Below, one piece after another: positions 1 through 29,056 of a stretch of 35,368 bases of DNA. The notes under the pieces are model-generated. The model did not search any database and was not told the origin of the DNA. It saw only the letters and a program-made list of their open reading frames with translations. The translations under genes and the position numbers were made by a program. Each line of letters opens with the position of its first letter. The first letter of the stretch is position 1. Origin of the DNA: a virus. The stretch spans positions 1 to 35,368 of IMG/VR virus record IMGVR_UViG_3300031841_003114; one strand, 5' to 3'.

Positions 1-2243
1 CCTTGATATCGTTTATCAATTCCTAAATGTCGTAACATGTCGTTATAGTTCAATGCTGATTTAACATGGACTGGCGTTCCTTTCATTCTAGGCATGAATG
101 GCTTATCTCCTTTCCTAACATATTTAGTTACATTCTTAACACCAATCGGAAACATAACATCTACTAATGGCAATGTTTTCATACGATCTTTAAAGTTTAG
201 AATTTTTTCATCCAATGTAACCTTATCAATATCATTTAACATATCTTCCAGTACCTCAGCCATGAACTTTCGAAACGATGGCGGGAATGATGATCGAACA
301 ACATCTAATCCTTTCACATCTAGTTTAGATACAGTATGACCTTCAACATTAATAATCCATTGTGCATATCGTTTCTTGGCAATCCATAAACCAGCCTTCG
401 CAACATTTTCTTGCTTGATATCAAATCTATGAGCTGTTACATTATGAAATCTTTTTGCATAAATGTCATATGATTTATTAATAAAGGCTTGCACTTCATC
501 TGCAACTTCAATAGTTTTTTCAGCCATCCAACCTTCATCTGTAATATCATAATTCGGATAACGGCTTTCGATGATTGGTAAAGATGAAAAGAAAGTTGAA
601 TCAGTATCTGTATAGATGCAATAATCTTTCTTCTCTTGCAATTCTTTTGTATAATATTGATTACCAATATCAGCTGTAAATTTAATCAATTGCTGACCTG
701 TAGATGTAATCGCTGTTGCATTATCCGGATCGAAAAATCTAAATCCTGGATTACCAAGTACTCCATAAAATGAATTGAGAAGAATTTTAGTTACCAACTG
801 CATCCTATCATAATATTCTGCCTTGGCTTCATCTCCTTCCTTTTCATATTTCTTACGAAGATTTTTATATTCAACACGTTCATTAAACCATTTGTCTAAT
901 ATCGATGGCAAGAATCCTTTTATCTTTGTATCATATATAACACCATTAGCAGCAATTGAATATTCATTATCATTCAGATATTTTTGCAGTTCATCTGTAG
1001 TTTCCCAACCGTTCCATCCATCTGTTAAATGAGTAGATTGTCCTTTAACAAATTTATGACCATCAAAGTTTTCAATTTTAGTTACTTTGGTTTCTGGAGA
1101 TATTCCAAGTGTCATAATGATACTAGGATATAACGATGTTAAGTCAAGGTCATATACCCATTTGTATCGGCCTGGATTTGGTGCCTTTACATAAGCTCCT
1201 AACAAATCTAATGGCTCATCTGAATTCCTAGGTTGTCTATTAGGTGCCACAATATTTAATCGATTAAGATATGTAACAGCCGCACCATCCAGATATCTAG
1301 TTGCAAATAAAAAGTCTTCGTATGGAACATGACCTTTATGACATATACCTCGAGCCAAATCGATAAGTTTCATTTTTTGATCTAACTCCACAACCAGATC
1401 AACATCATTCATGTTGTAATCAATATAGGCTTGAATATCTCGTTTCAATAAATCATCTAACGATCCTTCATATTTAATCTTTCCCTTGCCTAATTCTTTT
1501 TGTGATATAGCTTCTAACGAATAACTTGATTCTTGATTATATGTAAAGTTTTTATACAATGCCATATAGTCTAGACACGATACACCTGATATACGATATC
1601 TGTTTCTATGCTTTAGCCAAATAACATCTTTGATTGGTGATAAGGTTCTGGCTTTCTTTTCTCCAACTACCTTAACCAATCTGTTATATAAATACGGAAT
1701 ATCAAAGAAATCAATGTTCCAACCTGTAATGATAGTAGGTTGTATTTCATAATAAGTATGCAAGAACTTTTCTAGTAATGTATATTCATCATGACATGAA
1801 ATGATCTTAACATTATCTTTTACTGTTGATTCAACAACTCCTTGTTTATCTAAAACCCAAACATATCGTTCATCGCCTGCATGATCATAAACAGCCATCG
1901 AAGTTATTTCATGTTCAGCCGTTTCTGGAGTTGGAAATCCATCTGCAATATCAACCTCAATATCAATTGTAAGTATTCTATGACCGACAGATGATTCATC
2001 CGAATCTGTATACATGTCTATCAAAGTACGAGTTTCTGGATTGATATCAGATTCATACAATCCTTTATCATCTCTATCGAAATCAAAGATCTTATCAACT
2101 CGTTGACCGTCCAATGCTACATGTTTACCGTAAGAAGATTTACGATATGCATATGGTTTGTATTTTACCTTAAGATGACCTTTCTTATCATCCCAAATAT
2201 GTACTGTATTTGAATTTTTGTGATACGCTACTGCTTGATACAT
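1..2243 (-). CDS. Family B replicative DNA polymerase (T4 gp43-like), 3' end cut by window
   Basis: Reading minus from the ATG at 2243 gives an open frame of 747 codons that runs off the left edge, so the C-terminus is missing (T4 gp43 is about 900 residues). Visible motifs in order: exonuclease I with DIE at residues 94-96, an exonuclease II-type GWNIDFFDIPYL, exonuclease III YNMNDVD, polymerase motif A DLTSLYPSI near residue 365, motif B LLNSFYGVLG near 487, and motif C YTDTDS near 542. Both the 3'-5' proofreading and the polymerase sites are therefore present. It should copy the phage genome with the helicase, gp32-like and UvsX proteins encoded further right. The start ATG overlaps the HPRT stop by one base (TAATG), so translation is probably coupled. 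No intein or intron is visible in the part seen. Confidence 0.95.
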   Translation of the reverse strand, partial: MYQAVAYHKNSNTVHIWDDKKGHLKVKYKPYAYRKSSYGKHVALDGQRVDKIFDFDRDDKGLYESDINPETRTLIDMYTDSDESSVGHRILTIDIEVDIADGFPTPETAEHEITSMAVYDHAGDERYVWVLDKQGVVESTVKDNVKIISCHDEYTLLEKFLHTYYEIQPTIITGWNIDFFDIPYLYNRLVKVVGEKKARTLSPIKDVIWLKHRNRYRISGVSCLDYMALYKNFTYNQESSYSLEAISQKELGKGKIKYEGSLDDLLKRDIQAYIDYNMNDVDLVVELDQKMKLIDLARGICHKGHVPYEDFLFATRYLDGAAVTYLNRLNIVAPNRQPRNSDEPLDLLGAYVKAPNPGRYKWVYDLDLTSLYPSIIMTLGISPETKVTKIENFDGHKFVKGQSTHLTDGWNGWETTDELQKYLNDNEYSIAANGVIYDTKIKGFLPSILDKWFNERVEYKNLRKKYEKEGDEAKAEYYDRMQLVTKILLNSFYGVLGNPGFRFFDPDNATAITSTGQQLIKFTADIGNQYYTKELQEKKDYCIYTDTDSTFFSSLPIIESRYPNYDITDEGWMAEKTIEVADEVQAFINKSYDIYAKRFHNVTAHRFDIKQENVAKAGLWIAKKRYAQWIINVEGHTVSKLDVKGLDVVRSSFPPSFRKFMAEVLEDMLNDIDKVTLDEKILNFKDRMKTLPLVDVMFPIGVKNVTKYVRKGDKPFMPRMKGTPVHVKSALNYNDMLRHLGIDKRYQ

Positions 2244-2749
2244 TAATTAATTTTATATATGTTTCTGTAATTTCTTTTCAATGAATTATCGTCAAATCCA
2301 TAGCCACAAAGCCATTCATCCCCGACTTCAAATGCAAAATGATCGGCTGGCATTTTCGCGTCCTTACGTTGAACTAAAGTTACCACTTTCACATCTACTG
2401 GCATACGATCATTTACATGATGCAAAACTTCTATCATTGTCTGTCCTGTATCAATAATATCCTCAATGATATAAACTCGTTTGCCTTTCAAATCTAAGTC
2501 CAATGTCTTTGTAATTTCAACGCCTCCGGAATTGTCTCGTCCTTCATATGACTTGGCTCTAATGAAATCCATTTGAACATCGATACCCATATCCTTAACA
2601 AGATCTGTATAAAACATTACAGCTCCATTAAGAACACATATCATAACAGGTGGCAACGAATTACCACTATTTTTATGTTCTTCGGATATCTTATGCGCCA
2701 ATGCTCTTACACGACGCTCTATTTTATATTCAGGAATTACAATTTCCAT
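2243..2749 (-). CDS. hpt: Hypoxanthine/guanine phosphoribosyltransferase
   Basis: A 168-residue protein of the usual length for bacterial HPRT. The PRPP-binding signature EDIIDTGQT is at residues 96-104, the substrate loop SYEG at 67-70, and the LKG-type loop is VLNG at 39-42. The family transfers ribose-5-phosphate from PRPP to guanine or hypoxanthine, making GMP or IMP in the cytoplasm. The gene overlaps the 3' end of folE by 20 bases and the polymerase start by one base, so the three are probably co-translated from the promoter at 3409-3439. Only a weak AAGAAG lies before the start. Making GMP next to a GTP-consuming enzyme suggests guanine salvage into the deazaguanine route (inference). 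Which base it prefers cannot be read from the sequence. Confidence 0.9.
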   Translation of the reverse strand: MEIVIPEYKIERRVRALAHKISEEHKNSGNSLPPVMICVLNGAVMFYTDLVKDMGIDVQMDFIRAKSYEGRDNSGGVEITKTLDLDLKGKRVYIIEDIIDTGQTMIEVLHHVNDRMPVDVKVVTLVQRKDAKMPADHFAFEVGDEWLCGYGFDDNSLKRNYRNIYKIN

Positions 2750-3404
2750 AACTTCTTACAAATTCATAATATTCATTTCTGGTTGCAGGATCGTCTTTGA
2801 ATGCACCAGTTAGTTTGCTTGTCTTCATTGAAGCACCGCCATGCTTAACACCTCTACAAGATACACAGTTATGAGTAGCATCTATCATAACAGCAACACC
2901 TTTATTGTCATTGATAATCGTATCAATCGAATTATGAATGGCAACTGTTAATTGTTCTTGTATAGCTCCTCTCCTACCAAAATGTTCAACTAATCGATTT
3001 AATTTGCTTAAACCGATTACTTTGCTATCCTCGCCTGGAATATAAGCTACATGCACTTTACCCATAATAGTTTGATGATGATGTGAACACATTGAAGTTA
3101 ATGGAATACCTCCTTCAAACACCATGCCATCATATCCATCGCTTGGAAATGCAGTAATCTCTGGAGCTCCGTTATATCGACCTGCCCATAAATCATTAAC
3201 ATATGCTTTAGCTACTCTCCTAGGAGTATCATTTGAATTTGGATCGTCTCTCCAATCACATCGCAATGCATCTAGAAATTCGCCAAATGCTTTGGTTGCA
3301 TTTTCTATCATATCAGACTTCTCTTGATCTGATAATGGACCGCCAGGAGCTACTCCGTTAGCAAATCCTTCTTTAACTAGTTCTATACTCTTTTTTGTTG
3401 TCAT
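2730..3404 (-). CDS. folE: GTP cyclohydrolase I (FolE)
   Basis: A 224-residue protein close to the length of E. coli FolE (222). It should convert GTP to 7,8-dihydroneopterin triphosphate, the first step of both folate and 7-deazaguanine synthesis. The zinc ligands are visible as C106 and H109 (in MCSHHH) and C180 (in THNCVSCRG). Other family motifs are VIGLSKLNRLV at 129-139 and the C-terminal FKDDPATRNEYYEFV. With queD and queE 2-3 kb upstream in transcription order, the likely role is deazaguanine precursor supply. No Shine-Dalgarno is present: the promoter box TATATTTA ends only four bases before the ATG, so the message may be leaderless, or the start may be M32, which would keep the catalytic core. 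Confidence 0.94.
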   Translation of the reverse strand: MTTKKSIELVKEGFANGVAPGGPLSDQEKSDMIENATKAFGEFLDALRCDWRDDPNSNDTPRRVAKAYVNDLWAGRYNGAPEITAFPSDGYDGMVFEGGIPLTSMCSHHHQTIMGKVHVAYIPGEDSKVIGLSKLNRLVEHFGRRGAIQEQLTVAIHNSIDTIINDNKGVAVMIDATHNCVSCRGVKHGGASMKTSKLTGAFKDDPATRNEYYEFVRSYGNCNS

Positions 3405-3408
3405 ATAT

Positions 3409-3439
3409 TAAATATAAGAAATTTTTTTCAAATAAACAA
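3409..3439 (-). promoter_or_regulatory. Bipartite phage promoter before folE
   Basis: Read on the minus strand there is a TTG (3437-3439), exactly 20 bases, then TATATTTA (3409-3416), with an internal TTGAAAAAAA. The same architecture recurs at 6158, 10590, 13653, 16184 (TTG degenerate) and 19928. It resembles the Bacteroidota -33 TTG / -7 TAnnTTTG promoter. The box ends four bases before the folE ATG. Confidence 0.7.
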
Positions 3440-3442
3440 ATA

Positions 3443-3908
3443 ACTCATCCGGAATGTTTAAATTATTTTATAATCGCTTTCGCTTCTAAAATTTTATATA
3501 TCTCTGCAATTTCTCGCGAGACATTATCCGCTGTTTTATCAATACGAGAATCAATTGTTCTGTAAACTTCATCAAATTTTCTTTGAGTGTCTTGTGAACG
3601 GTTTTCTATTTCTCGATGTGCTCCATTGAATCTCTCATCTAGATCTTGATACAAGTCATTGAATTTTGCATCTAAATCACGAAGATTGTGTTCAATGTTA
3701 TTCATTATGGTTTGTTCAACCATTGTTATGTCTTGGTGAGTACTTCCAAATTGTTGCTCGACATCACGCAACATGGAGTTCATCTTCGTCACCTTGAACA
3801 TTGCCCACACAGCTCCTACAGCAACAGCTGTAACAACCACAGAAGCAATACCTAAAGTAAAATAAAGTGTTTCCATCTTTTTTCTCCTATATTAACTTCC
3901 GGATGAGT
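3443..3908. repeat. 12-bp perfect inverted repeat flanking the membrane coiled-coil gene
   Basis: ACTCATCCGGAA at 3443-3454 is the exact reverse complement of TTCCGGATGAGT at 3897-3908. The two arms bracket the 137-residue ORF together with its ribosome binding site. They may mark a mobile or exchangeable cassette, or pair in RNA. No target-site duplication was identified. Confidence 0.55.
3463..3876 (-). CDS. Small membrane-anchored coiled-coil protein, function unknown
   Basis: A 137-residue protein not recognised as any known family. Residues 5-28 are one strongly hydrophobic segment (LGIASVVVTAVAVGAVWAMF), predicted as a membrane anchor. The remainder is charged and heptad-like, with repeated spacing of D, E, R and hydrophobic residues, suggesting a long cytoplasmic coiled coil. 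The start has a good Shine-Dalgarno (AGGAG seven bases before the ATG). It lies between the GroES-like gene and the folE promoter and is bracketed by the 12-bp inverted repeat, so it may be a separately acquired unit. A spanin, a superinfection-exclusion factor or a membrane-attachment factor are all possible; nothing in the sequence decides between them. Confidence 0.75.
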   Translation of the reverse strand: METLYFTLGIASVVVTAVAVGAVWAMFKVTKMNSMLRDVEQQFGSTHQDITMVEQTIMNNIEHNLRDLDAKFNDLYQDLDERFNGAHREIENRSQDTQRKFDEVYRTIDSRIDKTADNVSREIAEIYKILEAKAIIK

Positions 3909-9229: not shown

Positions 9230-10585
9230 TTATTCAAAGTCATTGTTGTTTATTTCTTTGAATTTACGAGCTAACATCTGTCTAGCATACTCTTCTCCTT
9301 TATCCATTTCCTTTTGAGTCTGCTGTCCTTGTACTGATGTATCCGCATAAATATGTATTTGTCCATTTGATGTATTCATCTTACTTGGCAATGTAATACC
9401 ATCAGGTCCAAATCGATTTTTGATAACATGCCACCTACCAGTTCCTGCCAATTTATCTTGAACCTTTCTTGACAATGATATAACAAAATCTGCAACCATT
9501 ACCTTACCATATGATTCAGCAATCTTCTCTGCTCCAATCACATCTTCCTCTAATGCCGATCTATTTGCTTGAGATGCTGTCCATACTGGTATTTCATATT
9601 CTCCTGCTAGTCCTCTCAAGTCCTCATATATACCTTCTAACTCATGACGCTTCTCTTGACCATGGCCTCGTAACAAATCTGCATAATCAACTATCACAAC
9701 ATCGGGTTTCCTGCCTTGCATTATACATTTTTCAATATGACCACGTAAACCTAACACCGATACTGTTTTGGTTGGATAGTATTTTATTATCAACTCTCCA
9801 TCTAATTTTTCTAGATCTTCTTTTACTTGAGATTGATAATGTTTTAGATTTTGATTTGCAATTCCAGTAACTACCGAGTCATATCTTAAACCAACATACG
9901 CTTCATTCAATTCTAATGTATAATGAAGAACAGTCTGTCCTTTCTTAATTGCATTAGCACCAATATTAATTAATCCCCAAGACTTACCAATACCAGCTGG
10001 TGCAACGAATACTCCTAACTCTCCTTTACCTAAACCACCATCAGTCAATTCATTGATTACTTCCCATGGCGTTTCTTTTGTATCCCGTACTGCTTCTGTA
10101 TAACGTTCTTCTATTGAAGTCATGTAGTCATGTCCAATATCTTTATCACCTCCAGCTTTTAACGCATCATCTATTTTTGATTTGATATCTTCATACTTAC
10201 CATGCTTCAATAATTCAACTGATGACAGTATTGCTTTTTTGATTTCTTGATTCTTACAAAAATCTAATGCCTGTTGTTTAATAAATTCTAAATCAGTAGC
10301 CTCTACAAATTTCCAAGCATCTTTAAGGTGATCGATTATCTGTTGTTTAAGTACATCATGATCAACATCTTCTATCTTCACTTTCATTACTTCTAATGTC
10401 GGTGGAGCTTTATATTCTTTGTTGTATTCTAATATCTTGGTTACTATCCAATTATTAGCATCGCTTTCAAAGTATGTTGGTATCAGAATGTCTGATATCT
10501 GTTGTAAGAATAATCTGTCTGTAAATAATGCAGTTATAACTTTTATTTGAAAACTATAACCGTATGAACTTAATCTATCTGTCAT
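9230..10585 (-). CDS. DnaB-family replicative helicase (T4 gp41-like)
   Basis: A 451-residue hexameric-helicase type protein. Residues 1-150 form the helical N-terminal region. The RecA-like motor follows: Walker A APAGIGKS at 195-202, Walker B VVIVDYADLL at 296-305, and the ASQANR motif at 337-342. It should unwind the replication fork on the lagging strand and work with the gp43-like polymerase and a primase not seen in this window. It starts 28 bases downstream of the exonuclease gene, with a bipartite promoter overlapping that gene's 3' end. The Shine-Dalgarno is poor (TTAATGTATG). Confidence 0.93.
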   Translation of the reverse strand: MTDRLSSYGYSFQIKVITALFTDRLFLQQISDILIPTYFESDANNWIVTKILEYNKEYKAPPTLEVMKVKIEDVDHDVLKQQIIDHLKDAWKFVEATDLEFIKQQALDFCKNQEIKKAILSSVELLKHGKYEDIKSKIDDALKAGGDKDIGHDYMTSIEERYTEAVRDTKETPWEVINELTDGGLGKGELGVFVAPAGIGKSWGLINIGANAIKKGQTVLHYTLELNEAYVGLRYDSVVTGIANQNLKHYQSQVKEDLEKLDGELIIKYYPTKTVSVLGLRGHIEKCIMQGRKPDVVIVDYADLLRGHGQEKRHELEGIYEDLRGLAGEYEIPVWTASQANRSALEEDVIGAEKIAESYGKVMVADFVISLSRKVQDKLAGTGRWHVIKNRFGPDGITLPSKMNTSNGQIHIYADTSVQGQQTQKEMDKGEEYARQMLARKFKEINNNDFE

Positions 10586-12815: not shown

Positions 12816-13613
12816 TTATTCGTTAAACAATGCATCGAATGCCGATGAAACATCATCTACTTTATTAACTGTTTCTCCTGTATCAGAAGACGCTTTAGTA
12901 TCAGTAGATGCAGTTTCTGTCGCTGATGAATCAGTAGTATCAGTAGTACCACTTGCATCATCTTCTGGATTCAACCATTTCTCTAACGCATCTTTAAGAT
13001 CATCATATGATGGCTCTTTGAATATATCAGATAGTTTAGGCTGATGTTTAGCTACTTTCTCTGCAATGTTTTTGTCTTCAGTAACCGGTGTTGTATTTGG
13101 CTTAACACGGATTGCTGTTTTTGGATATTGTCCTGGACCATCTGATGGTGTGAACTCTACAACGATATCTCTACCATTCATTGGATCGGAAAGATCTCCA
13201 TAATCAGGATCTGCGATAAAACCTAATAGTTCTGTATAAACTGTTTTACCAAATCCCCAAAACTTAACTCCTTCGGATTCTTTACCTCTTACGATTACTG
13301 GAACATAAGTTCTCATTTTAGGTTCCATTTTCTTACCTAACTTCCATTCATCTGAATTACCAGAAGATTTCAATTTCTCTGCAAATTCAACTACCGGATC
13401 GGGTTTGCCGTAAGTGACAGGTGATAGATAATTTTTCTTACCTAAATCATAATGAAAGTATAATTCCTGGAATGGATTATCTTTATCATATTGATAAGGC
13501 ACGATTCTGATTGTTTGTTTACCTGGTTCAGGTTTCCATAAATTGTTTTGGCGGTTGCCAACTGTTTGTAACTGATTGAGTTTTCTTTTAATTGCGTCTA
13601 AGTCAATTGCCAT
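12816..13613 (-). CDS. Single-stranded DNA-binding protein, T4 gp32-like
   Basis: A 265-residue protein. The N-terminal basic stretch (DLDAIKRKLNQL) resembles the cooperativity domain of gp32, and the core KQTIRIVPYQYDKDNPFQELYF resembles the OB-fold core of T4-like single-strand binding proteins. Residues about 215-250 are low-complexity Ser/Thr/Asp/Glu, followed by a tip DDVSSAFDALFNE that is a likely protein-interaction end. There is no cysteine, so the zinc ribbon of T4 gp32 is absent. It has GAGGAG before the ATG and a strong bipartite promoter (13653-13683). It heads the run uvsX, exonuclease, helicase. Confidence 0.85.
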   Translation of the reverse strand: MAIDLDAIKRKLNQLQTVGNRQNNLWKPEPGKQTIRIVPYQYDKDNPFQELYFHYDLGKKNYLSPVTYGKPDPVVEFAEKLKSSGNSDEWKLGKKMEPKMRTYVPVIVRGKESEGVKFWGFGKTVYTELLGFIADPDYGDLSDPMNGRDIVVEFTPSDGPGQYPKTAIRVKPNTTPVTEDKNIAEKVAKHQPKLSDIFKEPSYDDLKDALEKWLNPEDDASGTTDTTDSSATETASTDTKASSDTGETVNKVDDVSSAFDALFNE

Positions 13614-13730: not shown

Positions 13731-14588
13731 TTATTCGTCTTCTTCAAATCCTAATTTTTTTAGCGGCTTCATTTTACTTGCATCAATAGTTGTATATACA
13801 GTCATATTATCATCTTCAAGATTAATGTCATCTTTTTGCAAAGTAACTCCAAGCTTTTTCATTAGGTCTCTCACACCTTTTTCAAGCAACTCATCATATT
13901 GATATAGCAATGGATCGCCAGGATCTAAGTCCGTATCTCCAGCGTTAATTTTCTTTATTAATTGATCTATTTGGGTTTTGTTAGGTAATGCATTGAGTAA
14001 CTTTTTTGGTAGTCTTGCCATGCCATCTTTTATATGCGATACCATTAAGATCATTTCTACTGGTCCTGTTCGGTTACCACTCTTACCTATGAGTTCTTTG
14101 AAAGCATTATTACCTATTGCCCTTTTAATGTTTTCAACATCGCGAGTTTTATAACTTAGCATACCATCATCTTTCAGCCGTTTTCTTACATTGGCGGTAT
14201 CCGTATCAGCCACCGCTATAAGTTTTGGCAAATCTTTAAAGAATTTATACAACGTAGGACCTATATTTTTTTGAGGTATCATTTCTTTTAGCAATTCAAA
14301 AGCTAATTCAGCCTCTGCCTCAGATGAAAAGTTATCCCCTTTCGTAAACGAATATTTGTACTTTGATTCAAGGTTGCGTTTAAACGTCTTTGGATCATTT
14401 TCTGCATGCCAACTGTCATGTGCTTGATAGAATCGTCGTATTGCATCCCATTGAAGTTCGCCAATCCTGTTAATAATCCGTTCTCTATCATCTGGAGAAT
14501 AATTAGAAAAGTTTTTTACATTGAAGTACTCAGTATTATTCTCATTCAAGACTCCTGTTTCTACTAATAGTTTTTTAAGCTTAATCAT
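13731..14588 (-). CDS. Unknown protein with possible capsid-targeting N-terminus
   Basis: A 285-residue soluble protein of no recognised family. The N-terminus is short and basic-amphipathic (MIKLKKLLVETGVLNENN) and contains two (L/I)-x-E tripeptides, LVE and LNE, the form cut by T4-type prohead protease. It lacks the ENYKRLFKG module of the three genes transcribed just before it, so membership of the same class is only suggested. The remainder is mixed helical and charged, ending in an acidic tail. It follows the fused two-module gene by 12 bases with AAAGGTAACC before the ATG. Confidence 0.75.
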   Translation of the reverse strand: MIKLKKLLVETGVLNENNTEYFNVKNFSNYSPDDRERIINRIGELQWDAIRRFYQAHDSWHAENDPKTFKRNLESKYKYSFTKGDNFSSEAEAELAFELLKEMIPQKNIGPTLYKFFKDLPKLIAVADTDTANVRKRLKDDGMLSYKTRDVENIKRAIGNNAFKELIGKSGNRTGPVEMILMVSHIKDGMARLPKKLLNALPNKTQIDQLIKKINAGDTDLDPGDPLLYQYDELLEKGVRDLMKKLGVTLQKDDINLEDDNMTVYTTIDASKMKPLKKLGFEEDE

Positions 14589-14600
14589 TGGTTACCTTTT

Positions 14601-15809
14601 CTATGAAAACTCATCAAACATGTCAATAATGTTCTCATCAGTCATTTGAGTTTCGCTTTTAAACTTACTTTCATTTTCCCAATAAGGTCCTTCATAATCA
14701 CTAACACCTTTAATAGTAATCTCACCTTCATGAGCTTTACCATCTACATCCATATATATGAAATCCATCTTGGCACCATTGGCGTATTTGTCTTCAGCCA
14801 TCTCTACTGCATCAGCATATATCTGATCATCTAATGGTTCGGGACTGGGGAAGTCTTGAAATGTAAAAGAGTTATTGATACTCTTTACTAAGATTGAGTT
14901 CGGTTCAGCTACTGCCTCATTTATCAAGCTTCGATCGTTACTTCTAGCTTTACCTTTAAACAATCGTTTATAATTTTCTCGTAGGTTCATTTTGTTCATA
15001 CCTTTATAATTTTCTAATAAATTTAATAAAGCTTCTGCTGCCTCTGCTTGGTCATTAGGTTCACCATCGGATGTACTTCGTAAATCATCATATGCATCAA
15101 TAAGTTTTTTATTGCGACTCTTTTGTACAGCATCATAAAAATCACCTAATTCATCTATGATATCATCTGTCATGTCTCTACCGCCTCCGGCATCATCTGC
15201 TATTTTCATTACCACATCTGCCAGGGCATCTTTATCTAAAGCCGGTTTTCTCTTTCTCTTCTTTAGATTTTTTGCAGCATCGACATCAAAAGTCCCACCA
15301 TCTTTTTTTGCAACATGATCTTCTAATCCTTTTGACAATGCATATTTCACAACTGCATCATCGATCATTTTTGATACTTCATCTTGTTTTGCTTTGGCCA
15401 TTAATGCTGGAGGCCATTCTTCTTCCCAGTCGGTCGACTTGACGTCGTCCTCGCTATAATCTTTATTCTCTCTAAAAGGATTATTTCTATGGGCGATTTG
15501 AAGTCCCCACATTGATTCTGGGAAATACAACGTGATTGACAAGGCCATATCCGTTCCAGGATCAAGTTGCCTTACTTCGTCCACATCTCCCGCAACGCCG
15601 CGGGCTCCAAATCTAGTTCCTTTTGGAATGTCAGCACCATCTATTGTTCCGCCATATTGAACTAACGCTGAATCAATACCTTTGTAGTTTTGCGGATTAA
15701 TTCTATGGCTGTTTACTTTTATATTATATCGCGATTCAAATAACATCGAACCGTCATTACTAGCCGGTTTGCCTTTAAACAATCGTCTATAATTTTCTTG
15801 TAGGTTCAT
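14601..15809 (-). CDS. Putative head-packaged protein, fusion of two module-bearing units
   Basis: A 402-residue protein of unknown function. It begins with the shared module (MNLQENYRRLFKGK, then LFE as a possible cleavage site) and contains a second full copy from residue 271 (NLRENYKRLFKGK, then INE). The start at 15809 is chosen because AAGGA lies six bases upstream; an in-frame ATG at 15830 overlaps the previous gene and lacks that spacing. DNA before the internal methionine at 14999 (AAAGGTATGAACAAAATG) matches the ribosome-binding region of the neighbouring gene at 16167. The protein therefore looks like two genes whose intervening stop was lost, or a gene with an internal start giving a 132-residue product. 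The first unit has basic (KKRKRK) and acidic stretches; the second has IYMDVDGKAHEGEI. Confidence 0.75.
   Translation of the reverse strand: MNLQENYRRLFKGKPASNDGSMLFESRYNIKVNSHRINPQNYKGIDSALVQYGGTIDGADIPKGTRFGARGVAGDVDEVRQLDPGTDMALSITLYFPESMWGLQIAHRNNPFRENKDYSEDDVKSTDWEEEWPPALMAKAKQDEVSKMIDDAVVKYALSKGLEDHVAKKDGGTFDVDAAKNLKKRKRKPALDKDALADVVMKIADDAGGGRDMTDDIIDELGDFYDAVQKSRNKKLIDAYDDLRSTSDGEPNDQAEAAEALLNLLENYKGMNKMNLRENYKRLFKGKARSNDRSLINEAVAEPNSILVKSINNSFTFQDFPSPEPLDDQIYADAVEMAEDKYANGAKMDFIYMDVDGKAHEGEITIKGVSDYEGPYWENESKFKSETQMTDENIIDMFDEFS
14916..14999 (-). repeat. Targeting-module copy 4 (internal)
   Basis: Encodes MNKMNLRENYKRLFKGK followed by ARSND and the possible cleavage site INE, inside the 402-residue fusion. 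The DNA is similar to the copies at 15735, 16084 and 16696. Confidence 0.75.
15735..15809 (-). repeat. Targeting-module copy 3
   Basis: Encodes MNLQENYRRLFKGK, PASND and LFE at the N-terminus of the fusion protein. Confidence 0.75.
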
Positions 15810-15822
15810 TGCTATTCCTTTT

Positions 15823-16167
15823 TTATCCATGATTCTTTTTTATGTATGGAAATGCAACTTCCTCCATCCAATCATCAACTGTATACCCTTTCTTTGGATC
15901 TAATGCAACCAAATCATCTGTTAAATCTTCGACTTCACGACTTGGACTATCCGATCCGTATTCAACCCAATCATCATAGCTATCGAAATTCTCTAGCATA
16001 TCATTTTCCATAGCTTTTAACACTTCCTCTGCTTTAGACTCGAATGCTGGTGATGGATATGAAAATTTGAAATCGTTCATATTTTCTCGTATCAATTTTC
16101 TATCGTTAGAAGACGTTCTTCCTTTAAACAATCGTTTATAATTTTCTTGTAAATTCATTTTGTTCAT
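15823..16167 (-). CDS. Putative head-packaged small protein with N-terminal targeting module
   Basis: A 114-residue protein of unknown function. Residues 1-28 are the shared module (NLQENYKRLFKGR, then TSSND and LIRE, the last containing I-R-E, a T4-type cleavage tripeptide). If cut there, about 86 acidic residues would remain, rich in Asp and Glu (EDLTDDLVALD) with a WMEEVAFPYIKK end. Such small acidic cargo would resemble T4 internal proteins in size. Promoters of both classes overlap upstream (TAG-N20-TATATTTA and ATATTTATAT). The Shine-Dalgarno is AAAAGGA before the ATG; an internal ATG three codons later is equally placed. Confidence 0.75.
   Translation of the reverse strand: MNKMNLQENYKRLFKGRTSSNDRKLIRENMNDFKFSYPSPAFESKAEEVLKAMENDMLENFDSYDDWVEYGSDSPSREVEDLTDDLVALDPKKGYTVDDWMEEVAFPYIKKNHG
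16084..16167 (-). repeat. Targeting-module copy 2
   Basis: Encodes MNKMNLQENYKRLFKGR, TSSND and IRE at the N-terminus of the 114-residue protein. Confidence 0.75.
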
Positions 16168-16183
16168 ATCCTTTTATTTTATA

Positions 16184-16214
16184 TAAATATAAGAAATCTT
16201 TTTCGTAAGTCCTA
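16184..16214 (-). promoter_or_regulatory. Composite promoter: degenerate bipartite plus late-type box
   Basis: TATATTTA (16184-16191) has TAG in place of TTG at 20-base spacing (16212-16214), with an ACGAAAAAGATTT spacer like the other copies. The box continues as TATATTTATATAAAATAAA, also matching the late-type motif, so the gene may be read both early and late. Confidence 0.55.
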
Positions 16215-16230
16215 ATTTATTTAAAGCTTT

Positions 16231-16773
16231 TTATCCTTCTTGCTTTTTTCGCATTAGTATCATATAAGTTCCTTGTTCAGATCTGACGTTATAATCATAC
16301 TGGCTAGGCGGAAATTTCTTCTGAATCTGGTCATATATCATATTCATATTTTTATCGTCGGTTTGATATTCGTTAGCCTGTTTCATATCTTTTTGAGAAA
16401 CCATCATACAAACTAGATTCTCTTTTGGATCGAGTTTTATTACAAACGGACCGGCTTCGTATCCGGTTTTTTTGCCAGGCGTTGTTTCGCCATCCTCGGT
16501 CTTACCACTCACCGTAGTTCCGCTCATGTCCATTTGAGTCCATGGTCCCTCAGCCTCTATTACTTCAAATCCTTTTCGAAGCAGATTAGTTTTAGATTGA
16601 TCGATGGGTATTCCAAATGCGTTATTTTTGCCGCCTGGTGATCCTTGAGCAAATGCAATCAATTCTTTTTGTAGTTTCTCAGCATCCTTTTCTGCATTCT
16701 CTCGTAATAATTTTAAATCGTTAGAAGACGCTCTTCCTTTAAATAATCTTCTGTAATTTTCGTTAAGTTTCAT
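16231..16773 (-). CDS. Putative head-packaged protein with N-terminal targeting module
   Basis: A 180-residue protein of unknown function, and the first module-bearing gene in transcription order. Residues 1-26 carry MKLNENYRRLFKGR, ASSND and LLRE, containing L-R-E, a T4-type prohead cleavage tripeptide. The remainder has a Lys/Glu-rich helix (about 28-45), a Gly/Thr-rich stretch (SGTTVSGKTEDGETTPGKK) and a C-terminal beta-like region ending YMILMRKKQEG. No catalytic motif was recognised. It has its own late-type box (16792-16802) and AAAAGGGAC before the ATG, consistent with expression when heads are assembled. Confidence 0.75.
   Translation of the reverse strand: MKLNENYRRLFKGRASSNDLKLLRENAEKDAEKLQKELIAFAQGSPGGKNNAFGIPIDQSKTNLLRKGFEVIEAEGPWTQMDMSGTTVSGKTEDGETTPGKKTGYEAGPFVIKLDPKENLVCMMVSQKDMKQANEYQTDDKNMNMIYDQIQKKFPPSQYDYNVRSEQGTYMILMRKKQEG
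16696..16773 (-). repeat. Targeting-module copy 1
   Basis: Encodes MKLNENYRRLFKGR, ASSND and LRE at the N-terminus of the 180-residue protein. Confidence 0.75.
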
Positions 16774-16791: not shown

Positions 16792-16802
16792 ATATAAATA
16801 TA
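16792..16802 (-). promoter_or_regulatory. Late-type promoter box before the first module gene
   Basis: TATATTTATAT on the minus strand, 18 bases before the ATG at 16773, followed by AATATAAAAGGGAC. No TTG element is seen at 20-base spacing. Confidence 0.55.
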
Positions 16803-16804
16803 CA

Positions 16805-17194
16805 TTACAAATCGATTCTACGCTCTAAAACCAATCCGATTCTGCGTAGGTCATCATCCGATGTTAACAGCAATGAATTTTCATATGTCGGCCAATGCAC
16901 TGCAAACTTTTTATCTAACACTCCGTTATTGGCTTTGCGTATAATTGTGTTCAATGCATTCACTGTGTACAATGTGTTGGTTTCTTTTTTTCGGTGTATT
17001 GAAATTGTATTTGGTGTCTTTCCGTAATCTTCGGATGGATTTACGTTATATGTAATGTATAGGTCATGTGAATTTTCAGCATCGGCAAACACGAATATGC
17101 GACGTTCTGACACATCATATGATTTCACAATGTAATCAATTATGAGATCCAAATCCTTTCTATGTGCAAATGTGCATAATAACTGTGTTTTCAA
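16805..17194 (-). CDS. Conserved-looking unknown phage protein, TTG start
   Basis: A 129-residue protein of unknown function. An ATG at 17260 would overlap the nuclease-like gene by 65 bases; instead a TTG at 17192-17194 lies just after that gene's TAA with AAGGA seven bases upstream, giving a clean start MKTQLLCTFAHRKDLD. Features include RRIFVFADAENSHDLYITYNV, an ISIHRKKETNTLYTVNALN segment and a C-terminal DDDLRRIGLVLERR. I recall similar proteins (IHRKK...NTxYTxNALN) from other T4-like marine phages, but know no function. It is transcribed after the nuclease-like gene and before the module-bearing cassette. Confidence 0.75.
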   Translation of the reverse strand: MKTQLLCTFAHRKDLDLIIDYIVKSYDVSERRIFVFADAENSHDLYITYNVNPSEDYGKTPNTISIHRKKETNTLYTVNALNTIIRKANNGVLDKKFAVHWPTYENSLLLTSDDDLRRIGLVLERRIDL

Positions 17195-17195
17195 T

Positions 17196-18551
17196 TTACA
17201 ATCCTTTTTGTAATTGTACAAATGGATATTTAGTAGCATTGAATAAAGATTTAGGTGCATATCTCATTTGTCCTTGTGTAATATTCGTAGTGTACCATTC
17301 ATCTTTTTCTGCTATTCCCATTTCTTTAGGCGTTTTAGTTTCAGAGGTAGTTCGAAACCACATTACTTTTCCAGATGGGATTTGGGCAAAATAGATATCT
17401 CTTGCCTGGACTAGTTCAGTTATGAATAATTCCGGATCTTGTACCCATGGGTGATTACGTAAATTATAAAGCCAGAGATTGGCTTCTACAACTGATTCAG
17501 TTTTAATAGGTACTACATTAATAGTAACCTCTTTTCCATCAACTGGCACGCCTTGTAAATCTTCGATATCTTCATCTCCTATAGCAAATTTGCCTTTAGA
17601 TGCTCCTGATAATGTCATGGCGGTAATAGACTTATCTTCTAGAAATTTATCTGTTAAAATACTTTGAGCTTTTATTAATCCGTTATAAAGGTTTTGCATA
17701 TCCGATAGGTTACGTTCTGTTCCGCCGGCTCCGTATAATCTAACTCCTTTACTGGATACAGTAGAAAATTCTTTTCCATCTCCAAACATGTCCAATAAAT
17801 TGTTTAATTGTTCATCTTCTGGGTATAATTGTTTTAACGCTTCTATTATATATGTTTCTTCTAACATAGGAAGTACTGCATCTGTATATAGAGACATGCA
17901 CCGCTTGCTCCATGGCATTCGGGCTGCCATACCTCCAGTTGCTGGTCTTATTGTTGATCCGACTAGTTCTTTAATTTCAATTGTCGTTCCGCCTACTTTC
18001 AAATCATGTTCAGCAGTTCCGCCTGATTGACTGCCTTTGACGCCCATTAGTGCAGCTAATTCTCCTCTACCAAAGCCTTCTCTTTTAAAATCCATAAATT
18101 TTATAAAAGTTTTCCAACCACTAGCGACAAACTCTTCAACTGAATATGTACGAAATTTGTCTGCTACTTTTTTTGCTTCACTAGGAGGTAATTGTAAAAA
18201 AGTTTTTTCCGCATAATCTATAACGTCTTGGTATGAACCTGATTCAGAAAATACTTTTTCATCAATTAATTTTTGTAATAATACATTCCATATCTCTGAA
18301 TTTTTATTATCATCTTCATTTACCTTAACTGGCTTTGCATCATTAAACGCTTGATCGAGCTGATCAACCTCATTTCTCATTTGGTCTGGCTCTGTAAACT
18401 TTTCTTTTTCAAGTTTAGCTTCTGATAATGATATACCATTTTCTGATAACACTTCGTTTAGTACTGCAAGTTCCGCGTCCGTGTATGGAGCATCAGCATA
18501 ACCTTTAGGTAGTCTGTAAAACCACTCTCTTACAATTCCGTCAAAATCCAT
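17196..18551 (-). CDS. Putative PD-(D/E)XK nuclease-fold protein
   Basis: A 451-residue protein. Residues about 9-40 form an EWFYRLPKGYA-type module with a helix containing LNE and LSE, followed by an acidic linker. The middle carries a restriction-endonuclease-like pattern: G-x-G-E (GRGE, 161-164), D183 in EHDLKVGG, then E192-I-K194 in IEIKE, i.e. D-X8-E-X-K. A basic, Gly-rich stretch follows (GGMAARMPWSKR). The fold call rests on these motifs only; the cleavage target is unknown and could be host DNA, or DNA at packaging or ejection. Its late-type box and the module-bearing genes downstream suggest a virion-associated or late role. The C-terminal 250 residues are not recognised. Confidence 0.7.
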   Translation of the reverse strand: MDFDGIVREWFYRLPKGYADAPYTDAELAVLNEVLSENGISLSEAKLEKEKFTEPDQMRNEVDQLDQAFNDAKPVKVNEDDNKNSEIWNVLLQKLIDEKVFSESGSYQDVIDYAEKTFLQLPPSEAKKVADKFRTYSVEEFVASGWKTFIKFMDFKREGFGRGELAALMGVKGSQSGGTAEHDLKVGGTTIEIKELVGSTIRPATGGMAARMPWSKRCMSLYTDAVLPMLEETYIIEALKQLYPEDEQLNNLLDMFGDGKEFSTVSSKGVRLYGAGGTERNLSDMQNLYNGLIKAQSILTDKFLEDKSITAMTLSGASKGKFAIGDEDIEDLQGVPVDGKEVTINVVPIKTESVVEANLWLYNLRNHPWVQDPELFITELVQARDIYFAQIPSGKVMWFRTTSETKTPKEMGIAEKDEWYTTNITQGQMRYAPKSLFNATKYPFVQLQKGL

Positions 18552-18565
18552 ATATAAACTCTTTG

Positions 18566-18575
18566 ATATAAATAT
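18566..18575 (-). promoter_or_regulatory. Late-type promoter box before the nuclease-like gene
   Basis: ATATTTATAT on the minus strand, 14 bases before the ATG at 18551 and just touching the stop of the preceding gene. An AAAGAG follows as a weak Shine-Dalgarno. Confidence 0.5.
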
Positions 18576-25500: not shown

Positions 25501-28368
25501 TTATCCTCTTCCTTTATTCATTGACTGTTGTGCTGATACCTTTTCTGATACTCTTTGACCATCCATATTAACTTGAGGTGGATTAGCAGCTATAGCAGCT
25601 GCAACTGCAGAGCCTAATTTATCATAATCAATTGAAGCGCCACCACTACCAGCACCGCCATGACTTGGTGACATTGATACTCCGTCATTTTTTGTTCCTT
25701 GATATATTCCGCCTTCACGAGGTGATGATACAACAGGACCTCCATTAGGATCGATTGCTAAATCTCCAACAGACATTATGTTACCTATACCTCCAGACAT
25801 TAATCCACTTATAGCAGCTTGTCCTGCACTTGAACCAGCAAAATCTTTTACACCGCCGGCTAGTTTGCCAATACCACCGCCAATTCCACTTACTAAACTA
25901 CCAGCAGCATCTTTCGCTTTACCCATTATGCCTTTTGACTTACCTCCGCCGGTGGCATCTGGTTTTATATCTTCTGATGCTTCTGCAGCTTCTTCTAATG
26001 CCTCTGTCATATCTTCAACGCCTTCAACTCCTTCAGCTATATTATCTGATACATCCTCTGTTTTATCTGCAAGAGCATCTGCTTGGTCTGTCGTACCAGA
26101 CATAGTTTCTGTCAATTCACCTGCACTAACATTTGCAGATTCCATATTCGTGGCACTTGCATCAGTAGATGTTTCGAGACCTCCCATTTGTTCTAATAAC
26201 TGTGTAATTGTATCTGCAACAGATTGAAACTTTTCTCCTAATGATTGTGTAGCCTCTACTTGTTGTTGTGCTAACTCAGTCTGTTTTTCGGCGTTATCAG
26301 CTGTTACTTTATTTGCTTCCATTGACTCATTTTCTAAGTCAACCCGTTCTTTAGTATTACGCGATGCTTCTGCATTTGCTTTTCTAATCTTACGATATAT
26401 AAGAAAGGCAGCTCCTAATACAGCTCCTAATGCAATCGTATATGAAATTACAGTTTGCATTGCTGTACCCGATCCAGTTAATCCTGATGCAAACCAAGCG
26501 ACTCCCTCAGCCATTTTTGTTATTACTTTTTGAACGAATATAGCAATTGGCAATAATGCATTTTTCATTGTATTAGTCGCCTTTTCCATTTCTTGTGCTT
26601 GTATACGTGCTTGATCTGATTTTTTCAACTCTGCCGCAAGTTCTCCAGGTTTCATTTTAAGCATTTCTTCTGCTGACATTCCAAGTGCCTCAGCATCTTT
26701 TATTTGTTGCTCACTAAATTTATCCCTTAACTTATCCATTGCAAAGCTTTTTTCAATTAAATCTAATTCTACACCAGTAGCTTTAGCTAGTTCTTCTCGT
26801 TCATGCTTTTTCATTTTTACAAACGCTGCTTCATCAATACCAGCTTGCTTCATTTGTTTTTGTACTTCAGCAGCTGCTTCCGTAAGTTTATTGTCTAGTG
26901 CTAATGCACGCGCCTTATCAAGGTTTATTTCTTTTCCGGTTAAAGCTTGAAATTTGAATTGGGCTTCTAACGATCCTTCTATATCTAATAAGGCATCGGC
27001 TTGAGATACCATATCAGCAACACTTCTACCTAATTTTGCTGCTTCTATAGCAGCTTTTTTTAACGCTTTTGGATTTCCACCGAAATATTTTAAAGATGTT
27101 TTAGCATTAGCGGCAATATCAGCCATTACTGCTTCTGCACTAACACCGGCTTTATATGCATCCGCCGCGGCTTCTTCTTGTAACTTCGCTGCATCTGCTT
27201 GATCCATGCCCATTTGCATTAACGTTGATTGTACTTGTCCAGCCGTTTCATTTGAAATACCAAATGCCGCCGCGGTTTCTGCCACGTTAACTGCTACTTG
27301 ATCTGATAATCGACCCATAGGTCCAAAATTCTTAATAGCTTCTGTCTGTACTGCTAAGATATCTTCTTCCATAGCTAATACATTTCCAGTTACATTGCTT
27401 CTTTCACCAGCACTTTTAACTAACGCTTCTGATTGTGCATGTGTTAATCCTGTCTGTTTTGTTAGATTTCGTGCTTTTTCATCTTGTTCATTTGCTATAC
27501 TTAATAGTCCTTTTCCAGCCGCAAGCAATCCTACGCCTAACGCAAGAGCAGCTGGTACTAAATTCTTTTTTAATACACCACCACTAGCTTTTAAGGATTT
27601 GAATAATGCATTTCCTCCATCTTCTGCTTCAACTAATGATTCTTGCACTTCCTCATAATTCTCTTTAACTTGATCTTGCATTTTTTGAGACATATTATCA
27701 AAGCCTAATGCAGTTGCAATTAATTTACCGCCTGGTATACTATCAAATATTGAATCTACCTTATCGCCAAGTTTTTTTGCAGCATCTAATGATTCTTCAA
27801 ATGACGCTTTCATTATTTTGAAACCTTCGGATTCCATTGCATCATTCATTTTTTGAATCATCTCATTTTCTTGCTCTAGGAGCTTTAAATTTTCTAGAGC
27901 TCTAGATAAGGCTTCTCCTTGCAGTCTACCGGATTCGATATCAAGTTTTACTCGTTCAACCGATCGTTGATTTGCTGCTTGTAAACTTTTTACTTGATCT
28001 TCTGTAAGGTCAAATATGTTTTGTTGAGTTGTTCGATGTTCTTTGAGTCGATCTATGATCAATTCACTCATATCTTTTTGATCGACTAATAAATCATATT
28101 GTTCTTTATCGAGCTGATTTTGCTCTTCTTTTGCTTTATTAACTTCTTCTTGTTTTTGCTTTCTTAATTCTGTTTCTCTACTGAGCCGTTCTTGTCGTAA
28201 AATTTCTTTATCGAGTTCTGCAACAGTTTTAAAATGACCTTCTTCAACTTTTTTATTAAGATTAACTAAACGCTCGGCCGATATTTCAAGTTGTTTGTAC
28301 TTTGAAAGATACGAATCTAGTATCTTTTCCTGATTTTTATCCGGTCCGGGTGTTTGTTTTTTAGCCAT
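25501..28368 (-). CDS. Tape measure protein
   Basis: A 955-residue, highly helical protein, with long coiled coil in residues 1-260 (Glu, Lys, Gln, Leu) and two hydrophobic segments, 270-291 (VPAALALGVGLLAAGKGLL) and 639-658 (ISYTIALGAVLGAAFLIY). Between them lie repeated Ala-rich helices, and the C-terminus is Gly/Ser-rich. This architecture and the position after the chaperone genes identify the ruler that sets tail length. At about 0.15 nm per residue, it predicts a tail near 140 nm. The hydrophobic segments are of the kind that may enter the host membrane on ejection. A spacer of three bases separates it from the preceding gene. Confidence 0.92.
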   Translation of the reverse strand: MAKKQTPGPDKNQEKILDSYLSKYKQLEISAERLVNLNKKVEEGHFKTVAELDKEILRQERLSRETELRKQKQEEVNKAKEEQNQLDKEQYDLLVDQKDMSELIIDRLKEHRTTQQNIFDLTEDQVKSLQAANQRSVERVKLDIESGRLQGEALSRALENLKLLEQENEMIQKMNDAMESEGFKIMKASFEESLDAAKKLGDKVDSIFDSIPGGKLIATALGFDNMSQKMQDQVKENYEEVQESLVEAEDGGNALFKSLKASGGVLKKNLVPAALALGVGLLAAGKGLLSIANEQDEKARNLTKQTGLTHAQSEALVKSAGERSNVTGNVLAMEEDILAVQTEAIKNFGPMGRLSDQVAVNVAETAAAFGISNETAGQVQSTLMQMGMDQADAAKLQEEAAADAYKAGVSAEAVMADIAANAKTSLKYFGGNPKALKKAAIEAAKLGRSVADMVSQADALLDIEGSLEAQFKFQALTGKEINLDKARALALDNKLTEAAAEVQKQMKQAGIDEAAFVKMKKHEREELAKATGVELDLIEKSFAMDKLRDKFSEQQIKDAEALGMSAEEMLKMKPGELAAELKKSDQARIQAQEMEKATNTMKNALLPIAIFVQKVITKMAEGVAWFASGLTGSGTAMQTVISYTIALGAVLGAAFLIYRKIRKANAEASRNTKERVDLENESMEANKVTADNAEKQTELAQQQVEATQSLGEKFQSVADTITQLLEQMGGLETSTDASATNMESANVSAGELTETMSGTTDQADALADKTEDVSDNIAEGVEGVEDMTEALEEAAEASEDIKPDATGGGKSKGIMGKAKDAAGSLVSGIGGGIGKLAGGVKDFAGSSAGQAAISGLMSGGIGNIMSVGDLAIDPNGGPVVSSPREGGIYQGTKNDGVSMSPSHGGAGSGGASIDYDKLGSAVAAAIAANPPQVNMDGQRVSEKVSAQQSMNKGRG

Positions 28369-28371
28369 CTA

Positions 28372-28740
28372 TTAACAGTAATTACGATTCTTCTTACGAT
28401 ACTTGGCAAGATGTTTTAACCATTCTTTACGCTCGCGTTCAACAAAATCTCTTGTAGTACCACCTGGATGTTTAGCTAGATCGAGTAATCCTTGTTTATG
28501 AGAATCTTGTGTTCGTTTAAGCGTTTGTTCAATTTCATCCCCTAGCTTTTCAATAGCATCCATCTGTGCTTTTAGTTCTGGCACATCTTCGATATCAGCG
28601 GCCATTTTCTTAAGATTCTTTTTTAATCCTCTATTCTTGAAAAACCAGTTAACTACATTGGCTCCCCAGCCTTCATTCAATTGTTTATCAATTTTGTTGA
28701 TTTGAGTTAACTGCCGATTTTCAAATTCATCTAGTTTCAT
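28372..28740 (-). CDS. Small basic helical protein next to the tape measure, function unknown
   Basis: A 122-residue, highly charged and helical protein without recognised domain. The C-terminus is strongly basic (KHLAKYRKKNRNYC). The N-terminus MKLDEFENRQLTQ contains LNE at about residue 21, which could be a cleavage tripeptide, but this is weak. It lies between the chaperone pair and the tape measure and has its own late-type box, so it may be a third assembly factor or a baseplate part. The Shine-Dalgarno is AGGACG. Confidence 0.75.
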   Translation of the reverse strand: MKLDEFENRQLTQINKIDKQLNEGWGANVVNWFFKNRGLKKNLKKMAADIEDVPELKAQMDAIEKLGDEIEQTLKRTQDSHKQGLLDLAKHPGGTTRDFVERERKEWLKHLAKYRKKNRNYC

Positions 28741-28756
28741 AGCACGTCCTATTTAT

Positions 28757-28766
28757 TAATAAATAT
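28757..28766 (-). promoter_or_regulatory. Late-type promoter box before the 122-residue gene
   Basis: ATATTTATTA on the minus strand, 16 bases before the ATG at 28740, in the 28-base gap after the chaperone ORF. Confidence 0.5.
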
Positions 28767-28768
28767 GA

Positions 28769-29056
28769 CTATCTACCAAATTTGGGTGGGCGTGCGCGCG
28801 ACGAATTCGATCTTGCTTGCCTGTTGGCTTTTTCTTGAGCTTTATTCCGATCTTTAAAGATTTTATTGATTTTATTGATATAGTATACGCGAAGATATAC
28901 TGGCATATCTGTCACGTCAGAATAAGAAAATCCTTTACCGTAATAAACTAGATCAAATATTTGATCATATACATTTAATCTATATTTTGCTGTCAGGCCA
29001 AAAAAAGTCCAATCCGATGCTAAGGTTACACGAAAAGGGATCGCCGTCCTCCTCAT
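28769..29056 (-). CDS. Second tail assembly chaperone ORF, probably a frameshift extension
   Basis: A 95-codon ORF in the +1 frame relative to the upstream 290-residue ORF, overlapping its last 77 bases. Its only in-frame starts (ATG 29056, or TTG one codon earlier) lack a Shine-Dalgarno; a GAGGAGG lies just inside the ORF with no usual start codon after it. The protein-like part begins at TFFGLTAKYRLNVYDQIF, immediately at the T7 run (29000-29006). It continues as LVYYGKGFSYSDVTDMPVYLR and ends in a basic tail (RARPPKFGR). The most economical reading is that it is made as a fusion to the upstream protein by +1 or -2 frameshifting, as in other long-tailed phages. It may correspond to T4 gp51 (guess). 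Confidence 0.65.
   Translation of the reverse strand: MRRTAIPFRVTLASDWTFFGLTAKYRLNVYDQIFDLVYYGKGFSYSDVTDMPVYLRVYYINKINKIFKDRNKAQEKANRQARSNSSRARPPKFGR

Follow-up and report, generated by a model that had tools for sequence, protein, structure and literature searches.

The stretch of DNA analysed here (the window; 35,368 bases, IMG/VR record IMGVR_UViG_3300031841_003114) is a fragment of the genome of an uncultured virus. It contains tail tube, sheath, neck and baseplate-type genes together with genes for RecA/UvsX, a single-strand DNA-binding protein (SSB), a helicase and ribonucleotide reductase, all on the minus strand, like every window feature located below (genes without a family match are named from the sequence and from relatives). 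Judging from this content, it is part of a T4-like myovirus genome. Three adjacent genes of 180, 114 and 409 amino acids (aa) carry four copies of a 25-residue module, LxENYxRLFKG..SND..[LI]xE (leader A), which is very probably a removable capsid-targeting leader of a T4-type head. The phage probably carries a set of unrelated proteins that would be packed inside the head and delivered into the host with the viral DNA. A first-pass annotation had proposed such a leader, and the proposal now gains support from cargo swaps at the predicted cut, the scarcity of the protease motif in the cargos, the predicted disorder of the module and the presence of the protease in near relatives.

The module, its predicted cleavage junction and its cargos

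All four copies that had been announced are present (ending at LRE25, IRE28, LFE32 and INE305), three of them N-terminal and one inside the 409-aa gene, and 14 of their 25 columns are invariant. The 180-aa gene (16231..16773), an open reading frame made of leader A and a cargo, contains [LI]xE at LNE5 and LRE25 only. Its leader, MKLNENYRRLFKGRASSNDLKLLRE (16699..16773), matches the module profile with 42.7 bits and, from the register of the junction, is predicted to be cut after E25. The 114-aa gene (15823..16167), which has a 79% identical relative in contig G002, has the same layout, and profile and junction place the predicted cut of its leader (16084..16167) after E28 (LIRE). The open reading frame, alignments and an AlphaFold2 model suggest that the 409-aa gene (14601..15830) encodes a putative polyprotein. 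Its N-terminal leader A (15735..15830) has a predicted cut after E32 (LFE), placed from the AlphaFold2 confidence. Cargo 1 (residues 33-273; 15012..15734) would consist of a beta-rich domain and a helical domain according to alignments and the model, and its end, LLE273, lies near the natural C-terminus of homologs of the second domain (LLDLLS, LLDIIG). The internal leader A (residues 274-305, between LLE273 and INE305; 14916..15011) has its own possible ribosome-binding site and ATG, and cargo 2 (residues 306-409; 14601..14915) has a stand-alone homolog behind another leader, leader B, in contig G001.

Further proteins beginning with ENYxRLFKG, which the first-pass annotation had suggested seeking in the rest of the genome, are encoded by about 21 other contigs of IMG/VR. 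Back-translation of ENYxRLFKG into a DNA pattern retrieved 21 viral contigs (17 with an N-terminal module, three with a C-terminal copy and one chance match, L022, with a frame of 13 residues) and a second pattern retrieved four further module-bearing contigs. These patterns succeeded where neither the 180-aa protein, in tblastn against 'phages', nor the 114-aa protein, in a related-locus scan, gave any match. L017 was dropped as a C-terminal copy with a short tail, the tail (EIQA) being the end of the L015 cargo; from its sequence, it is probably a deletion derivative in which an upstream gene was fused to a module remnant. Altogether, 29 module instances with different cargo starts, two of them slight variants of another, could be aligned. 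Five columns (E, Y, L, F and D) never vary among the 29. In 25 of them the junction [LIMF]xE stands in the exact register, in 28 it is within one residue of it, and this motif is nearly missing at every other offset, both in the module and in cargo residues 1-21. Column entropy is 0.85 bits at the junction Glu, 2.4 one residue later and about 3.5 from there on.

Evidence for a separable leader also comes from natural exchanges. Genes of this kind bear three leader types: A, B (MIKLAG[IL]A..[FL][IL]KE) and C (M[IM]KLKKLLxE). Window cargo 2, behind leader A (LINE/AVAEPNSILV, the slash marking the junction), is found in G001 behind leader B (LIKE/AVAKPNTILV), with 58% identity over 110 aa (E 8e-43). 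A second cargo follows leader A in G001 and L053 (LLSE/AMAWER) and leader C in L023 (LLE/GMAWER), and a third follows leader A in G008 (VISE/ANSAMRLKS) and leader C in L024 (LLE/DYSTMSLKS). In all three cases the change of leader falls at the junction Glu, i.e., at the predicted cut, and the unrelated leaders have only a hydrophobic-x-E end in common. Such swaps are predicted by separable leaders and not by a folded domain common to these proteins. As previously claimed, the cargos are largely unrelated to each other; the claim fails for the 114-aa cargo and the second 409-aa cargo, which share a short F.F..PSP stretch. That they resemble nothing recognised was borne out by Pfam and PHROGs searches on 28 proteins, which gave nothing convincing.

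T4 gp21, an S77 protease, cuts after L/I-x-E (PMC9026906). Such a prohead protease, expected somewhere in the genome from the earlier reading, is absent from the 35-kb window, which ends before the head genes; it was found, above the Pfam cut-off, in the close relatives G007 (91% identical to the window in the sheath and 98% in the tube) and G010. The head genes of G007 stand in T4 order: terminase, portal, S77 protease, acidic scaffold and major capsid protein (MCP). The proteases of these relatives align to T4 gp21, with matching motifs GELxHP (GELDHP) and SSRG (GISSRG). The predicted MCP maturation sites, aligned to Glu65 of T4 gp23, are QLVSE/AN in G007, QLVTE/AN in G010, QLISE/AN in Microcystis phage Mel-JY01 and QIVSE/AN in Flavobacterium phage immuto. 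Module junctions such as LISE/AN, VISE/AN and LLSE/AM are of the same kind, Ala being the commonest next residue. Moreover, G010 has a leader A gene within its head operon, between protease and scaffold, adjoining core-type proteins whose N-termini end in LNE.

The cargos are also poor in the protease motif. They contain 30 [LI]xE compared with 44.8 expected from shuffling (ratio 0.67), none of them in the 180-aa and 114-aa cargos, and they are enriched in [LI]xD, [LI]xK and Ex[LI]. The opposite holds for the replication proteins of this phage, in which [LI]xE is enriched (1.44; cargos versus replication proteins, Fisher P 0.0004). T4 serves as a yardstick: its internal proteins IPI, IPII and IPIII have [LI]xE nowhere but at the cut site, whereas gp21 degrades the core proteins gp22, gp67 and gp68, in which the motif is 2.3-fold enriched.

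These data bear on an alternative in which the module would be an interaction peptide recruiting proteins to the tail or baseplate or to a replication complex, [LI]xE being a structural or binding motif and not a cleavage site. The leader genes do sit in an island between baseplate-type and replication genes, and the cleavage itself is a prediction. However, such a peptide does not account for the match between the junction and the predicted MCP maturation site, for the depletion of [LI]xE in the cargos, for the module gene inside the G010 head operon or for swaps between leaders with only a hydrophobic-x-E end in common. We consider this alternative improbable.

Another refuting possibility raised by the earlier reading, that the module is part of a folded domain, was examined with AlphaFold2, which predicts the module to be disordered. 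In the 409-aa protein, the predicted local distance difference test (pLDDT) stays under 50 in three segments that span both leaders (residues 1-15, 18-32 and 277-333), and the chain becomes ordered from residue 33, directly behind LFE32. The models of the 409-aa protein and of a 451-aa protein described below were built with 4-5 sequences and have low confidence (mean pLDDT 53), so only the boundary between disorder and order was used from the former. The module could nevertheless be the first helix-turn of a folded domain in one family whose remainder has diverged, as its helical propensity would allow (AlphaFold2 helix 10-17). This is very unlikely given that the same cargos stand behind unrelated leaders, that the module is also internal and C-terminal and that confidence is low over the leaders and order starts at the junction. 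Still less credible is a functionless DNA-level repeat spread by recombination or duplication: the copies agree almost fully in some stretches, and recombination joins sequences at the junctions (the L007 and L021 chimaeras, see below), but the proportion of synonymous differences in the nine-codon core (pS 0.68) is near saturation and that of non-synonymous ones low (pN 0.10), i.e., amino acids hardly vary, which shows selection on the core peptide.

Several points weigh against a capsid-targeting leader. Packaging and cleavage are here read from sequences and models. No sequence similarity is detectable between leader A and the T4 targeting sequence, the T4 internal-protein N-termini themselves having, by inspection, only the final [LI]xE in common with it, and the module profile gave no match in those parts of two isolated distant relatives that were covered. 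The depletion of [LI]xE is moderate at 0.67 and weaker against tail proteins (P 0.03), and the T4 control sets are small. One of the 29 junctions (LLTTSE) does not fit; the contigs are fragmentary and several are near-duplicates, and the counts are therefore not independent. Finally, the window itself lacks head genes.

A possible two-sided tag, its proposed mechanism and its relatives

The module opens with a conserved LxE directly before NYxRLFKG, and internal copies are therefore flanked by sites on both sides. The boundaries are LLE273..INE305 in the window, LDE240..LKE265 in G001, where, for lack of a Met, translation must run on into the copy, and IEE102..ISE115 in L007, which retains only the SND..LISE half. 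C-terminal copies occur in two more distant phages (PFKE/NYNRLFKG and PLRE/NYNRLFKG), and the G014 protein with such a copy also has a leader-like N-terminus, KLLNE. Sites on both sides of the module would explain the fused internal and C-terminal copies: a leader between two cargos would be excised and a C-terminal one could work too. It may be, and we hold this with a little less than even confidence, that the leader serves as a packaging tag cleavable on both sides (LxE/NYxRLFKG..LLxE/) and works in any position: at N-termini, inside fusions and at C-termini. The polyproteins of these phages would then be packaged in the head and, while still in the prohead, be cut into several separate injected proteins, and the whole island would be a plug-in site for new effectors with interchangeable leaders.

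The timing of expression is suggested by an upstream motif. ATATTTATAT occurs 10 times in the window (1.07 expected), and each of the nine coding-strand copies closely precedes a gene. Six of these are virion genes, among them tube and sheath; the others are the 451-aa gene (copy at 18566..18575), the 180-aa gene (16792..16801) and the 114-aa gene with the 409-aa gene behind it (16181..16190). It does not precede the SSB, RecA or ribonucleotide reductase genes of the window, and relatives give the same picture. ATATTTATAT may thus be a late promoter.

The process can tentatively be drawn as follows. The leader genes would be expressed late, with the virion genes whose upstream motif they share. 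The ENYxRLFKG part would bind either the core of the prohead or the inner face of its shell and bring the cargo in. The gp21-type S77 protease would then cut after the Glu of [LIMF]-x-E, a site that is seen in the modules as the protease is in the relatives, and free the cargo in the head. The cargos would enter the host along with the DNA and act there early on, plausibly against its defences, as the T4 internal proteins suggest. IPI is an inhibitor of a type IV restriction enzyme and IPIII is needed on one Escherichia coli strain (PMC9026906, PMC9391042); by analogy, anti-defence roles are plausible for the cargos here other than the 451-aa protein.

The closest parallel is provided by IPI, IPII and IPIII of T4, which start with a short propeptide that ends in L/I-x-E, is conserved although the cargos diverge and is cut by the S77 protease gp21; among T-even internal proteins only this capsid targeting sequence (CTS) is conserved (PMC3012670, PMC9026906). 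The T4 CTS has 10-19 residues (MKTYQEFIAE in IPII and IPIII), whereas leader A has 25, with ENYxRLFKG and LxE at both ends. Unlike the CTS, leader A occurs in tandem genes, inside fusions and at C-termini, and is one of at least three interchangeable leader types. As it has no similarity to the T4 CTS beyond [LI]xE, it lies outside that sequence family, and the analogy with the T4 internal-protein system would be one of mechanism. T4 Alt, a packaged head protein cut by gp21 with propeptides at both termini, is a precedent for C-terminal copies (PMC9026906); however, no ENYxRLFKG module is reported in Alt and no cargo here matches a Pfam family. In phage P1, the first 30 residues of DarB suffice to send a foreign protein into the capsid and the cargo counters restriction, but the Dar proteins have no consensus leader (PMC9024508) and P1 heads assemble without a separate scaffold. 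phiKZ and SPN3US package many head proteins whose propeptides, with redundant sites, are cut after Glu by a gp21-like protease (PMC9026906); their motif is S/A-x-E, whereas P3 is L, I, M or F in 25 of the 29 junctions here. The module proteins gave no match in PHROG or Pfam. Judging from sequence comparison, the new elements are the leader sequence, the several interchangeable leaders, the dedicated cargo island and the fused and C-terminal copies.

If this is true, the leader would be a sequence flag for the packed and injected proteins of uncultured T4-like phages, and candidate injected effectors, likely anti-defence and almost all of unknown fold, could be read directly off metagenomes, with no need for virion proteomics. 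A targeting part (ENYxRLFKG) and a cleavage part (SND..LLxE) would moreover be told apart by the natural swaps and the partial internal leaders, and the long-standing question of the binding partner of capsid targeting sequences would become testable.

The cargo island and other leader-like genes

In those relatives of the window group that have both flanks, the leader genes occupy a single hypervariable island, bordered by a conserved 151-aa open reading frame (16805..17260) and the SSB gene (12816..13613; phrog_1192, E 7e-22), both syntenic in relatives. Single module copies also occur outside it, in the head operon of G010 and at another locus of G011. The fourth island gene of the window, said earlier to start with LVE and LNE, encodes 285 aa (13731..14588) and indeed begins with MIKLKKLLVE/TGVLNE (MIKLKKLLVETGVLNE). 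From alignments, it would consist of leader C, a second site (VLNE16) and a cargo without relatives among the contigs fetched; the leader and tandem site (residues 1-16; 14541..14588) are of a type also found on other cargos in L023, L024, G008 and L021. Mel-JY01 (L056, PP395634.1) has genes at the same island position (2060-3691), after a 151-aa homolog and before SSB, which begin with ...ETARINE/GAI and MQFKQYILGE/SSL, the latter resembling a 10-residue T4 CTS.

Leader-cargo junctions would act as recombination seams of the island, leaders B and C being interchangeable with A. L007:5827-6423 and L021:298-828 encode near-identical first cargos, each followed by a retained GRISSNDKMxISEAN segment and then by a second cargo that differs between the two, which amounts to cargo exchange at the module seam. 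In L023:2384-2710 and L053:1235-1630, a stackable segment, AWERTPGKPLPTLKDVxEKHNKSxNE, can sit between leader A and the same cargo; its sequence suggests tandem leaders with two cut sites. The more distant G014 (L044) has two adjacent genes (9554-10266, minus strand) that share MIKLKKLLQE[NS]SPGFENRKFGDPLPTLADVQEAKRLKE and then diverge, a leader C arrangement. In immuto (L055, NC_055915.1), gp077 and gp076 (27632-28633 and 28633-28932), which adjoin the terminase gene upstream, have a 25-residue leader in common, NF[DN]L..FL.ENKLT.N...LKE, and are unlike each other beyond it; the annotation of gp077 as a cob(I)alamin adenosyltransferase looks doubtful. The likeness of immuto gp071 (LQEKYNAIQEGKFSKEHFIAE/A) to leader A is by eye only and finds no support from the module profile, and homology is not claimed.

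Beyond the 151-aa border lies the 451-aa gene (17196..18551), absent from the earlier gene list. From alignments and fold matches, it combines a conserved N-terminal segment (EWFYRLPKGYADAPY..LDEVL..GxSLxE), spanning 45 residues in relatives, with a divergent part. E164, D183 and K194 are invariant in 7 homologs, and 17 of 18 structural rows for its model are type II restriction enzymes, all weak (Z at most 4.0). The protein has no Pfam match, and Foldseek gave no significant match with its model or with that of the 409-aa protein; we take it as a probable PD-(D/E)xK nuclease. Its leader status is uncertain because the family is not depleted in [LI]xE, and the likeness of its EWFYRLPKG to ENYKRLFKG, seen by eye only, was not retained.

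In the tail region, a 122-aa gene (28372-28740) begins with MKLDEFENRQLTQINKIDKQLNE/GWGANVV and has a weak PHROG match to an internal head protein (E 0.018). The start segment of its relatives in G008 and G012 also ends in LNE or INE, and its N-terminus is possibly another leader.

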